A stretch of DNA of 64,000 bases from Peteryoungia algae (GTDB lineage Bacteria; Pseudomonadota; Alphaproteobacteria; Rhizobiales; Rhizobiaceae), in NCBI RefSeq assembly GCF_030369675.1, contig NZ_CP128477.1:4334810-4398809 (forward strand). Direction: 5' to 3'. This document shows, in pieces, positions 7,618 to 12,016 of the stretch; within the stretch, counting starts at the first letter, position 1, and the number at the start of each line of letters is the position of its first letter. A model generated the notes under the pieces. That model ran no database searches. It saw nothing but the letters and a program-made list of their open reading frames with translations, and was not told the DNA's origin. The translations under genes and the position numbers were made by a program.

Positions 7618-7983
7618 ATGTCCTATCTCGCCTCCACGCTGGTCGCGCTCATCGCGCTCGAACACATCTATATTCTGATCCTGGAGATGTTCCTCTGGAC
7701 CACCCCGACCGGGCGCCGCGCCTTCGGCATGAAGCCTGAGCAGGCAGAAGCGACCAAGGTCATGGCGGCAAACCAGGGCCTCTACAATGGCTTCCTCGCA
7801 GCCGGCCTGATCTGGGGCCTGATGCACCCCGATCTTGGCCTTGGCTATCAGATCCAGTTGTTTTTTCTTGGCTGTGTGCTGGTCGCGGGCCTATATGGGG
7901 GTGCAACGGCTTCGCGGAAGATCTTCGTCATCCAGGCGCTCCCCGCAGCTCTCGCCCTATCTGCTGTCCTGATTGCCGGTTGA
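7618..7983 (+). CDS. DUF1304 family small membrane protein
   Basis: A 121-residue protein of four predicted helices. The N-terminal [17 protein letters not shown] and central [19 protein letters not shown] segments are characteristic of the DUF1304 (YqjF-like) family. No biochemical function is known. It ends four bases before the ispH start; ispH has no strong ribosome site of its own, so translational coupling is likely. Confidence 0.8.
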
Positions 7984-7987
7984 TCCG

Positions 7988-8992
7988 ATGAACATGCACC
8001 TGAACCGCCCCCCTTTGACGATCAGGCTTTGCGGCCCGCGCGGATTCTGCGCTGGTGTCGACCGCGCCATCCAGATCGTCGTTCTGGCTCTCAAGCGCTA
8101 CGGCGCGCCGGTTTATGTGCGCCACGAGATCGTCCACAATCGCTACGTCGTCGAAGGTCTGGAAGCCAAAGGTGCCATCTTCGTCGAGGAACTCGACGAG
8201 ATCCCCGCAGAACACCGCCAGCAGCCGGTCGTCTTCTCCGCCCATGGCGTGCCGAAATCCGTGCCGGAAGATGCGGCAAGCCGCAATCTCTTCTATCTCG
8301 ACGCCACGTGTCCGCTGGTGTCCAAGGTGCACAAGCAGGCCATGCGCCACCAGCGCCTCGGCCGCCATGTCATCCTGATTGGCCATGACGGCCATCCGGA
8401 AGTCATCGGCACCATGGGACAGCTTCCGGAGGGCTCCGTGTCGCTGGTCGAGACTGTCGAGGAAGCGGATCTTTATCAGCCCGCCGATCCTGACAATCTC
8501 GGCTACGTCACCCAGACCACGCTCTCGGTCGATGACACCGCCGGGGTCATTGCCAGGCTCAAGGCGCGATTCCCGAACCTGACCGCGCCCTCTGCCGACA
8601 GCATCTGCTACGCCACCACCAACCGACAGGAAGCGGTCAAACACGCAGCCCCGGGTTGCGATCTCTTCATTGTCGTCGGCGCACCGAATTCGTCGAATTC
8701 CAAGCGTCTCGTCGAAGTGGCCCTGCGGGCAGGGGCTACCCGCTCTCTGCTGGTGCAGCGCGCCTCCGAAATCGACTGGGCCGATATCGGCGAGATCCGC
8801 ACGCTCGGCATTTCCGCCGGCGCCTCCGCCCCGGAGGTGATCGTCGACGAGATCATCGAGGCCTTCCGCGAGCGCTTCGACGCCAATGTGGAACTGGCGA
8901 TCACGGCGGAAGAAAACGAGCACTTCCTCGTCAACCGGGAACTGCGCGATGTGGAACTGACCCGCGAGGACATGGCCTGGGTGAATGGCTGA
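7988..8992 (+). CDS. ispH: 4-hydroxy-3-methylbut-2-enyl diphosphate reductase
   Basis: The last enzyme of the MEP isoprenoid pathway (334 residues). This iron-sulfur protein reduces HMBPP to IPP and DMAPP. The [4Fe-4S] cysteines lie in [12 protein letters not shown] (C21), [12 protein letters not shown] and [18 protein letters not shown] and [12 protein letters not shown] are the other conserved segments. The start is the ATG at 7988, just after the DUF1304 stop; the next in-frame ATG two codons on is an alternative. In related rhizobia thrB and rnhA usually follow directly. Here an ABC-F gene lies between. Confidence 0.96.
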
Positions 8993-9078
8993 GGCGCTGC
9001 AACTGAGCTAGTATCTTGCCTTCCACCCCGGCCATCCTGTAGATTTGTCATTACGGTTTAAAAGAAAGGAGGGATCCC

Positions 9079-9153
9079 GTGCACAGTCATTATTTCCGGT
9101 TCAACCGGCAACGTGGTCCCGTCCCGGCCCTGCAAATGCGTTTGCAGGGCTGA
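9079..9153 (+). CDS. Leader peptide upstream of the ABC-F gene
   Basis: A 24-codon ORF starting with GTG behind a near-perfect AAGGAGG ribosome site (9066-9072, six bases upstream). The peptide begins MHSHYFRFNRQRG and ends QMRLQG. Its last ten codons include a perfect hairpin. It contains Arg-Gln-Arg at codons 10-12, a +X+ pattern like those at which macrolide-bound ribosomes arrest, and Pro-Val-Pro at codons 14-16. A weak promoter is possible (TTGCCT at 9016, TAGATT at 9040). The strong ribosome site on such a tiny ORF, and the RNA structures that follow, argue that it is translated for regulation, not for the peptide itself. The stalling role is inferred. Confidence 0.7.
   Translation: MHSHYFRFNRQRGPVPALQMRLQG
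9127..9150 (+). promoter_or_regulatory. Leader hairpin (arms 1 and 2) of the ABC-F attenuator
   Basis: A perfect ten-base stem, GCCCTGCAAA (9127-9136) with TTTGCAGGGC (9141-9150), closes a TGCG loop inside the last codons of the leader ORF. The 3' arm's TGCAGGGC (9143-9150) is also perfectly complementary to GCCCTGCA at 9230-9237, the 3' side of the downstream terminator. The two pairings exclude each other. A ribosome halted on the leader would cover arm 1 and free arm 2 to break the terminator. Complementarity is seen; the mechanism is inferred. Confidence 0.65.
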
Positions 9154-9204
9154 TCAGAGACCGTTTCTCAGCGACACCTTCTCCTGGTCTGCCCCTCATG
9201 GCCC

Positions 9205-9245
9205 GCAGCGCCAAGCCGTTCCGGCTCGCGCCCTGCATGTTTTTT
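9205..9245 (+). terminator. Intrinsic terminator between leader peptide and ABC-F gene
   Basis: A hairpin of stacked stems (GCA/TGC, GCGC/GCGC and AGCCG/CGGCT, with small internal loops and a TTC loop) ends at 9236. It is followed two bases later by GTTTTTT. This is a good Rho-independent terminator lying about 75 bases before the ABC-F start and 51 bases after the leader stop. Its 3' arm overlaps the sequence that can pair with arm 2 of the leader hairpin. Confidence 0.65.
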
Positions 9246-9319
9246 AGACCGCAGCGACATCCATTGGACAAGGCGAAAGGCCTGTCCGGACCGTCGCGCG
9301 GCAAGACCAGAGAACCATC

Positions 9320-10846
9320 ATGTCCCTGATCAATATCCGTAATCTCGGCGTCACCCTGTCGAGCCCGCTGTTTTCCAACCTCAACCTTGTCGTCAATGCC
9401 GGCGATCGCATCGGCCTTGCCGCCGCCAATGGCCGTGGCAAGTCGACCCTGTTCCGGTGCATCGCCGGTACGCTTGATCCGAGCGAAGGCGAGATCACCA
9501 AGGCGCGCGGTGTGACCATCGGCTATGTCGAGCAGAACGTGCCGCAGCATCTGCTGGATCTCACCTTCTACGACGCTGTGCTGGATGCGCTTTCGCCCGA
9601 ACAGGCCGAAAGCGAGAGCTGGCGCGTCGATGTGGTGCTCGGTGAACTCGACGTACCGGTTGAATTCCACCAGCGACCGCTGAAGGCACTGAGTGGCGGC
9701 TGGCAGCGCATGGCGCTGATCGCGCGCGTCTGGGTCACCGAGCCGGACGTGCTTCTGATGGACGAGCCCACCAACCATCTCGACCTCGGCAAGATCGCTG
9801 CCCTCGAGGCGTGGCTGAATGCACTGCCGCGCGACGTGCCGGTGATCCTCGCCAGTCATGATCGCGCCTTTCTCGATGCCGTCACCAACCGCACCGTCTT
9901 CCTGCGCGCCGAGCAGTCGCCAGTCTTCGCGCTTGCCTATTCGCGGGCGCGTTCGGCGCTGGAGGACGCGGACGCGGCCGATGCGCGTCGCTACGAGCGT
10001 GACATGAAGACGGCAGATCAGTTGCGCAAGCAGGCCGCCAAGCTCAACAATATCGGCATCAATTCCGGCAGCGACCTTTTGGTGGTGAAGACCAAGCAAC
10101 TGCGCGAGCGGGCCGAAAGGCTCGAGGATGCAGCCAAACCGGCTCATCTCGAACGCTCGGCCGGTGCCATCAGGCTTGCCAATCGCGGTACCCATGCCAA
10201 GGTTCTGGTGACGCTGGACGATGCGGAAGTGCTTGCTCCCGATGGCGCCGCGTTGTTTCGCACCGGCAAGCAGTTCATTTGCCAGGGCGACAGGATTGTC
10301 CTGCTCGGCGCCAATGGCGTCGGCAAGACCCGCCTCATCGCCATGCTGCGCAAGGCGATCGACATGCCCGAGATCGCCCAGGACGGCATCAAGGCGACGC
10401 CATCGCTGGTGCTGGGCTACGGCGACCAGGCGCTTGCCGATCTCCGCGACAGCGACACGCCGATGCAGGCGATCATCCACCGCTTCGATATCGGCGACCA
10501 GCGGGCACGGGCGCTCTTGGCCGGTGCGGGCATGAGCATCGATATGCAGGCGCGCCCGATCGGTCGCCTGTCCGGCGGCCAGAAGGCGCGGCTCGGCATG
10601 CTGGTGCTGAGGCTTGCGGAGCCGAATTTTTTCCTGCTCGACGAACCGACCAACCACCTCGATATCGAGGGGCAGGAGGTGCTGGAGAGCGAGCTGATGC
10701 AGCATCAGGCGAGCTGTCTGCTGGTCTCGCACGACCGCAGTTTCGTCCGCGCCATCGGCAACCGCTTCTGGCAGATCGAACGAAAGCGCCTGATCGAAGT
10801 CGAGGGGCCGGAAGATTTCTTTGCCGCAGCCGCACTGGCAAGGTAG
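9320..10846 (+). CDS. ABC-F family ATPase, possible ribosome protection factor
   Basis: A soluble protein of 508 residues with two ABC ATPase domains and no membrane segments: the ABC-F class, which acts on ribosomes. Domain 1 has a Walker A of AANGRGKST (an Ala where Gly is usual), signature LSGGW and Walker B LLMDEPTNHLD. Domain 2 has GANGVGKT, LSGGQ and LLDEPTNHLD. The linker (about residues 210-260) is a charged helical hairpin, the part that reaches the peptidyl-transferase centre in antibiotic-resistance ABC-Fs. The gene's own ribosome site is weak (AGAG). The attenuator-like leader supports a drug-inducible resistance role, but a housekeeping ABC-F (Uup/EttA-like) is possible. A short GGGGC-TGC-GCCCC hairpin follows the stop. 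Confidence 0.85.
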   Translation: MSLINIRNLGVTLSSPLFSNLNLVVNAGDRIGLAAANGRGKSTLFRCIAGTLDPSEGEITKARGVTIGYVEQNVPQHLLDLTFYDAVLDALSPEQAESESWRVDVVLGELDVPVEFHQRPLKALSGGWQRMALIARVWVTEPDVLLMDEPTNHLDLGKIAALEAWLNALPRDVPVILASHDRAFLDAVTNRTVFLRAEQSPVFALAYSRARSALEDADAADARRYERDMKTADQLRKQAAKLNNIGINSGSDLLVVKTKQLRERAERLEDAAKPAHLERSAGAIRLANRGTHAKVLVTLDDAEVLAPDGAALFRTGKQFICQGDRIVLLGANGVGKTRLIAMLRKAIDMPEIAQDGIKATPSLVLGYGDQALADLRDSDTPMQAIIHRFDIGDQRARALLAGAGMSIDMQARPIGRLSGGQKARLGMLVLRLAEPNFFLLDEPTNHLDIEGQEVLESELMQHQASCLLVSHDRSFVRAIGNRFWQIERKRLIEVEGPEDFFAAAALAR

Positions 10847-11050
10847 TCGTCGGTATCACCAGGGGCTGCGCCCCGGCAGGCCCGTGGTGTATGGCGCAAG
10901 CGAAAACCGGCACCCGGCATATGTGTGCGAGGTGAGGTCGCGATCCTCACTTCGCCCATTTCCTGTGCCGGATGTCGCTTGAGGACTGGCACTTGCCGAT
11001 CCCGCGCGCTATGCGTTCAGCTTCATTCCAAGCAGCACGGGAAAATCGCT

Positions 11051-12016
11051 GTGGCAGTCTATACCGACATTTCCGAAGGCGATCTGAAGGCCTTTCTCGA
11101 GCAATATGATGCGGGCGAGTTGACCTCCTACAAGGGTATTGCCGAAGGGGTCGAGAATTCCAACTTCCTGCTCCACACGTCCAAGTCCCCGTTGATCCTG
11201 ACGCTCTACGAGAAGCGGGTCGACAAAAACGATCTGCCCTTCTTTCTCGGGCTCATGCACCATCTCTCCGAGCGCGGGCTCAACTGTCCGCTCCCCCTGC
11301 CGCGCAAGGATGGGGCGTTGTTGGGCGAACTTTCCGGCCGTCCGGCCGCGCTGATTTCCTTCCTCGAGGGCATGTGGCTGAGAAAGCCCGAAGCGCAGCA
11401 TTGCGGCGAAGTGGGCGCAGCCCTCGCCAGGATGCACATCGCCGGCGAGGGCTTCGAGCTGACGCGGCCGAACGCGCTTTCGCTCGAAGGCTGGCACGTG
11501 CTCTGGGCAAAATCCGAAGCCCGCGCCGACGAGGTGGAGGAGGGGCTGGAAACCGAGATCGGCGCCGAGCTCGATTTCCTCGCCACCCACTGGCCGAAGG
11601 ATTTGGCCTCGGGCGTCATCCATGCCGACCTTTTCCCGGACAACGTCTTCTTCCTCGGCGATACGCTGTCGGGGCTGATCGACTTCTATTTCGCCTGCAA
11701 CGACCTGCTGGTCTACGACCTCTCGATCTGCCTGAATTCCTGGTGCTTCGAGAAGGATGGCGCCTACAACATCACCAAGGGCAAGGCGATGATCGAGGGT
11801 TACCAGTCGGTGCGGCCGCTCTCTGCTGCCGAGATCGAGGCCTTGCCGATCCTGTGTCGCGGCTCTGCGCTGCGCTTCTTCCTCACCCGCCTCTATGACT
11901 GGCTGACAACGCCGGCAGGTGCCCTGGTGGTGAAAAAGGACCCGCTCGAATATCTGAAGAAGCTGCGCTTCCACCGCGCCGTCACCAATGCCTCGGAATA
12001 CGGACTGATCGCATGA
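11051..12016 (+). CDS. thrB: Homoserine kinase (ThrB type II)
   Basis: Phosphorylates homoserine in threonine biosynthesis (321 residues). It belongs to the aminoglycoside phosphotransferase-fold class found in rhizobia, not the GHMP class of enterobacteria. Diagnostic segments are [14 protein letters not shown] near the N-terminus, [14 protein letters not shown] (catalytic loop) and [13 protein letters not shown] (metal-binding DFY). The GTG at 11051 after GGGAAA gives the family N-terminus MAVYTDIS; an upstream in-frame start would add an unconserved 42 residues. Its stop overlaps the rnhA start (ATGA). Threonine synthase is encoded about 10 kb away on the other strand. Confidence 0.95.

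Follow-up and report, generated by a model that had tools for sequence, protein, structure and literature searches.

The window, a 64,000-nucleotide stretch of Peteryoungia algae DNA, holds a short leader open reading frame upstream of a gene for a 508-residue ABC-F ATPase, which we presume to be the gene that it regulates (Table 1). Leader and gene sit between ispH and thrB, within a span from 7973 to 12016, and the ispH and thrB matches lie 2,064 nt apart. In five other genomes of the same family the ispH-thrB gap measures 112, 184, 464, 743 and 3,843 nt; three of these five, from the same genus, gave no ABC-F orthologue at E 1e-120, and in the other two ABC-F and ispH lie on different contigs. 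By this comparison of spacing, the leader and ABC-F look like an accessory module inserted between ispH and thrB. The best NCBIfam match of the ATPase is the ribosomal protection-like ABC-F model NF000355, at 281.3 bits, below the cut-off of 380 for assignment as an antibiotic-resistance ABC-F by curated-model score. The first Foldseek matches by E-value of its AlphaFold2 model (pLDDT 89.9) are VmlR2, PoxtA and YbiT. A resistance function is plausible.

Table 1. Features of the leader and its surroundings, in window coordinates.
Feature	Position	Strand	Description
ispH	7973-8992		upstream neighbour
Leader Shine-Dalgarno (SD) AAGGAGGG	9066-9073	+	from sequence; comparable purine-rich sites precede the leaders of relatives
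P0, 5' strand	9068-9080	+	covers leader SD and start codon; partner bases within 9111-9124; minimum free energy (MFE) fold
Leader ORF	9079-9153	+	24 codons, GTG start, peptide MHSHYFRFNRQRGPVPALQMRLQG
P0, 3' strand	9111-9124	+	Arg-Gly-Pro-Val codons; MFE fold
P1, 5' arm (segment S1)	9127-9136	+	codons A-L-Q and following; hairpin GCCCTGCAAA-TGCG-TTTGCAGGGC
P1, 3' arm	9141-9150	+	same hairpin; P1 lies inside the last eight leader codons
Segment S2 GGGCTGATCAGAG	9147-9159	+	end of P1, leader stop and next bases; partner of S3 in the predicted induced state
Segment S3 CTTCTCCTGGTCTGCCC	9178-9194	+	competes for S2 and the ABC-F ribosome-binding site
P3 hairpin (about 9205-9236) and T6 run (9240-9245)	9205-9245	+	possible weak terminator, in the window's lineage only
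Segment S4 GGCAAGACCAGAGA	9300-9313	+	ABC-F ribosome-binding site, predicted to be sequestered by S3
ABC-F ATPase gene	9320-10846	+	508 aa, presumed regulated gene; NCBIfam, AlphaFold2, Foldseek

The leader is closely tied to this gene. Among 297 genomes of the family, 57 (our own included) carry the ABC-F orthologue, and in 56 of them the leader precedes it. Searched at the DNA level, the 187-nt leader region matched 48 of the 297 genomes, 44 of them among the ABC-F-positive 57; the remaining four matched only small parts of it close to its 3' end. The other 13 ABC-F genomes lacked such a match; reading upstream of the gene recovered a leader ORF in 12 of them, and in the last (G217) the match to the gene covers its C-terminal half only. 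Order-wide, ABC-F was found in 64 of 397 genomes. We read 128 unique upstream stretches and found the leader in 123: in L018 and L163 the gene is cut or its start unmatched, L217 belongs to a 39% homologue, and L019 has a diverged leader-like stretch. The fifth upstream, L207 (genome G446), precedes an ABC-F orthologue and shows no recognisable leader or P1 hairpin. A P1 hairpin of strict pattern occurs in 122 of the 128, the others being L007 and L211, whose leader ORFs are present with altered hairpins, and L018, L163, L207 and L217.

We searched 385 class genomes with a covariance model built for the leader; at E 0.01, 29 genomes had a match, our own among them. All 12 matches outside our own genome with E below 1e-8 stand before an ABC-F gene of 51-65% identity, and among the weaker matches (E 2e-4 and above) that have loci, which is all but three, none lies at this ABC-F; one of them, L231, has a distant 28% ABC-F match. 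Elsewhere in our own genome the model found only the same hairpin on the opposite strand and two matches at E 0.08 and 0.26. ABC-F copies also occur in 12 plasmid records, including Sinorhizobium meliloti pSymA and Ketogulonicigenium vulgare, and the leader is present in each of the four records examined, in the last of them by eye. In at least two named alphaproteobacterial orders (Hyphomicrobiales and Rhodobacterales), on a chromosome and on plasmids, a single leader family thus goes with a single ABC-F lineage. This conservation supports, in rhizobia and beyond, the proposal of the initial annotation that a coding leader with a ribosome-openable hairpin is tied to the ABC-F gene. The window has no Rfam match at gathering score, the incomplete gene tables of PLSDB have no entry for the plasmid leaders, and we found no prior description of this leader in the literature searched, a scope that leaves aside most subscription journals and all bioRxiv preprints.

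The 24-codon ORF and its near-consensus SD, both described earlier from the letters alone, are indeed present, and the coordinates given there hold; across relatives the peptides form a family with the core H-H-R-(Q/T)-R-G-P-V-x-A-L, of which R-x-R-G-P-V-x-A-L is shared. In 86 representatives picked by motif, all four codons are used for Gly and likewise for Pro, and Ala is GCC in 86 of 86, a usage that fits selection on the peptide as the main constraint on Gly-Pro and the hairpin as the constraint on Ala; Gly-Pro may in part also be conserved as RNA, via P0. A first count of Gly-Pro (86/86) was circular because the leaders had been chosen by that very motif, and we recounted with the hairpin as anchor. 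Of the 122 upstreams with a strict-pattern hairpin, 118 then had Gly-Pro at the codons where it is expected ahead of P1. Two of the other four (L084 and L188) had been anchored on the wrong hairpin and do have Gly-Pro, and two (L019 and L152) truly lack it, L152 still having the hairpin.

Substitution patterns point the same way. In the nine codons preceding the hairpin (-9 to -1) the BLOSUM score was 3.19 in the true frame versus 0.75 and 1.10 in the others, and third positions accounted for half of the differences. For codons -9 to -5 alone, which had no part in picking the leaders, it was 2.49 versus 0.49 and 0.69, with a third-position share of 0.44. The frame signal was weak at codons -12 to -8 (0.78 versus -0.22 and -0.06; share 0.36), and a non-coding control stretch had 0.33 of its differences at each position. 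These patterns argue that the peptide is under selection in frame and that the leader is a coding ORF, as in a translational attenuator.

The 187-nt leader region folds better than its shuffled versions (z -2.55; 3 of 200 shuffles did as well). In P1, 99.7% of 688 cells (86 sequences) are paired, and three of the pairs carry double changes, a number reached in 7 of 500 shuffles. Downstream lies a segment, S3, whose consensus CTGGTCTGCC has its complement twice in the region, directly after the hairpin (S2) and at the ABC-F ribosome-binding site (S4). In the window, 9180-9193 pairs with 9300-9313 over 13 base pairs (-19.6 kcal/mol), a long-range pairing that had escaped the initial annotation.

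A cruder duplex test of wide regions against shuffles (45 of 123 leaders at no more than 5 in 100; median z -1.41) was noisy, so we replaced it by swap tests on defined segments. All 87 representatives entered the S3:S4 tests, alignment A1 holding 86 (one dropped for length) and A2 52; S3 was located as the stretch most similar to a 10-nt motif, agreeing at 6 to 10 of its positions, and so is possibly misplaced in divergent leaders. S3 paired with its own S4 at -16.18 kcal/mol versus -13.37 with swapped partners (z about -10; 0 of 20,000 permutations). The signal was carried by the 47 representatives without the common GACCAG in S4 (z -9.4; 0/20,000); in the 40 with a GACCAG ribosome-binding site the test was not significant (z -1.6; 1,043/20,000) because these vary too little. 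Compensating changes are seen in L045 (CTTTGATT against AATCAAAG), L150 (ATTCTGCC against GGCAGAAT) and L190 (GTCTCAT against ATGAGAC). Three control windows of 28 nt from the same loci gave no signal (z +0.7, +1.8 and +0.3), and S2 against the ribosome-binding site, meant as a fourth control, was not clean (z -1.8; 818/20,000). The signal recurred in 16 further loci outside the 87 (z -3.6; 5/20,000), a count that retains L253, whose automatic placement was wrong and whose real leader was read by eye. Co-variation of this kind indicates that the ABC-F SD is sequestered by an upstream segment, the arrangement expected of a translational attenuator.

The competing helix, S2:S3, is paired in 89.0% of 938 cells. 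Its co-variation is weak because the helix is nearly invariant: the swap test gave z -2.1 (417/20,000), or z -3.2 (24/20,000) in the divergent subset of 47, and four pairs with double changes compare with a shuffled mean of 3.7 (327 of 500 shuffles as high). A further helix, P0, pairs the start region of the leader itself with codons of the peptide core, and its two strands also co-vary by the swap test (z -6; 0/20,000), a figure that stands without a separate control window for P0.

Folding models indicate how a ribosome might act on these helices. Averaged over 86 leaders, the unpaired probability of the ABC-F SD region is 0.244 when a ribosome sits at the end of the leader, 0.283 in free RNA and 0.418 when one has stalled; in the window itself it rises from 0.14 to 0.34. 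The predicted opening is higher with a stalled than with a leader-end ribosome in 76 of the 86 and no higher in ten, and is nearly unchanged in L144, L146 and L177. In the model, covering at least four bases of P1 gives 0.42-0.45 and covering a single base only 0.307, and masking S2 abolishes the effect (0.245). S2 is thus predicted to provide the alternative pairing that frees the SD once the leader hairpin is opened, though the co-variation of this 2:3 helix is weak. A ribosome covers 13 nt beyond its P-site codon and some four bases of P1 need covering, which places the Gly codon or a later one in the P-site. The initial annotation had put the stall near codons 10-16 and pointed to the R-Q-R (+X+) pattern; the folding model moves the stall position, and R-Q-R alone would act one to two codons too early.

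We suggest that the locus is probably a translational attenuator controlled by its leader peptide and following the logic of ermC. As the pairing of S3 with the ABC-F ribosome-binding site is conserved, translation initiation is the step that the switch most likely controls. In the off state, ribosomes would traverse the leader, P1 (S1:S2) would re-form behind them, and S3:S4 pairing would shut ABC-F translation. A ribosome stalled with the Gly or Pro of R-x-R-G-P-V in its P-site would cover the 5' arm of P1; S2 would then take S3, releasing S4 and freeing the ABC-F start. P0 would keep the leader start closed while no ribosome is present, and leave it open once a stalled ribosome covers the Arg-Gly-Pro codons. 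Stalling would be triggered by ribosome-targeting drugs, against which the ABC-F would then protect. Macrolides (erythromycin and azithromycin) stall ribosomes at (R/K)x(R/K), or +X+, and xPx motifs, according to two papers (PMC13148051, PMC13410324), and RxRGPV contains both; since these drugs stall at such motifs, our best guess, by analogy, is a macrolide-like inducer. The peptide is a new candidate arrest motif, the base-paired elements give precise predictions, and the whole points to an uncharacterised group of candidate resistance ABC-Fs in soil and plant-associated bacteria. More tentatively, and with somewhat more doubt than belief, we propose a new R-x-R-G-P family of arrest peptides across Alphaproteobacteria and a single RNA with two start locks, P0 and S3:S4, which one stalled ribosome would open together. 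If true, this two-lock RNA would give Gram-negative soil bacteria a drug sensor that reinforces itself.

In attenuators of the ermC type a leader peptide governs four RNA segments, paired 1:2 and 3:4 when off and 2:3 when on, and segment 4 carries the SD of the resistance gene. Our leader has the same parts, the same pairing scheme and the regulated gene's SD in segment 4; it differs in peptide, sequence, gene and alphaproteobacterial host, its 3:4 helix encloses further hairpins, and in P0 the SD of the leader itself takes part in pairing as well. The cplR leader of Clostridioides difficile likewise combines an ABC-F gene, a uORF, an anti-SD and translational attenuation, but its uORF has three codons (MRI) and its terminator layer is demonstrated, whereas ours has 24 codons with an RxRGPV core and a terminator that is not conserved (PMC10201436). 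Induction of an ABC-F gene by a leader-stalled ribosome, predicted here, is described for msrD; MsrDL, in contrast, acts on transcription through an intrinsic terminator, and its peptide MYLIFM stalls at its own stop codon (PMC10314930). The S. meliloti duf1127 leader is also a rhizobial uORF whose ribosome-binding site pairs with its own early codons, a pairing both predicted and tested; it differs in that this pairing is part of transcription attenuation, the RNA rather than the peptide matters, and no ABC-F gene is involved (PMC12218461). In the literature examined, the ABC-F genes induced through a stalling leader (msrD, cplR and vmlR) all come from Gram-positive bacteria.

The initial annotation had read the output differently, as an intrinsic terminator at 9205-9245. 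A hairpin and a T6 run are there; the hairpin is imperfect (about -14.6 kcal/mol), and an ATG lies between stem and T run. The close relative L002 keeps the T6 run. Among 123 leaders, 23 have a T run of at least five between leader stop and ABC-F start, most of these judged by eye to lie outside the terminator position, and hairpin tails are somewhat T-enriched (0.31 versus 0.20; 8 of 36 with at least five T in nine) in 36 mostly same-family leaders, a count that excludes the family leaders L150-L162. In the clade of the window a terminator may form an additional layer. Translational attenuation throughout, joined in that clade by a lineage-specific terminator, would accommodate everything that favours the translational switch together with P3 and T6 in L001 and L002, and cplR combines the two kinds of control (PMC10201436); with a T run after P3 in few leaders, we regard the combination as unlikely.

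A drug-independent arrest, in which an Arg-x-Gly-Pro peptide senses another translation problem that the ABC-F resolves, seems less likely still. The arrest peptides SecM and ApdP end in RAGP and RAPP, which R-x-R-G-P resembles. Other ABC-Fs are reported to resolve stalling (PMC11381351). Against this stands the patchy presence of our ABC-F, in 57 of 297 family genomes and none of three other genomes of the genus, a pattern taken elsewhere as a mark of resistance ABC-Fs (PMC6723617).

Transcription attenuation as the whole explanation, with the stalled ribosome freeing TGCAGGGC to break the terminator, we consider improbable. The arm TGCAGGGC at 9143-9150 is, as claimed, the exact reverse complement of GCCCTGCA at 9230-9237; L002 keeps this pairing by eye with one G-U, the T6 run and T-enriched tails would fit, and the ABC-F genes msrD and cplR use terminators (PMC10314930, PMC10201436). 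An alignment of relatives had been proposed as a check, and it retains the peptide and hairpin but not this complementarity: downstream of S3, an exact 8-nt complement of the P1 3' arm occurs in 1 of 87 representatives, the window itself, and in none of the other 86. Over all 123 leaders it occurs in two (the window and L169), and a complement of 7 nt is present in 3 of 87. Hairpin-and-U sites resembling terminators number 19 in the 87 versus 6-21 in ten shuffles, hence are no commoner, and the window is not among the 19; a simple terminator scan of 8900-9400 found none. Neither the antiterminator pairing nor the terminator is a conserved output, and we rejected an attenuator of the msrD type, having looked for a conserved terminator and a conserved antiterminator pairing and found neither. 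The sensor half of the initial annotation was right, and the conserved output is sequestration of the ABC-F ribosome-binding site. Very improbable is control of Rho-type termination by the uORF, through C-rich codons masked by the leader ribosome-binding site, as has been proposed for S. meliloti duf1127: P0 does pair that site with the Arg-Gly-Pro codons in a like arrangement, but this reading leaves S3:S4 co-variation and in-frame peptide conservation unexplained, and in duf1127 it is the RNA that matters, not the peptide (PMC12218461).

Beyond the translational switch that we favour, one minor observation concerns the end of the leader. At three Microvirga loci (L014:1797-1889, L015:1819-1905 and L020:1801-1888) the base after GGGC is altered and the leader ORF reads past the usual stop; these loci keep GGGCNGACC despite the lost stop, a hint that this stretch is held as RNA.
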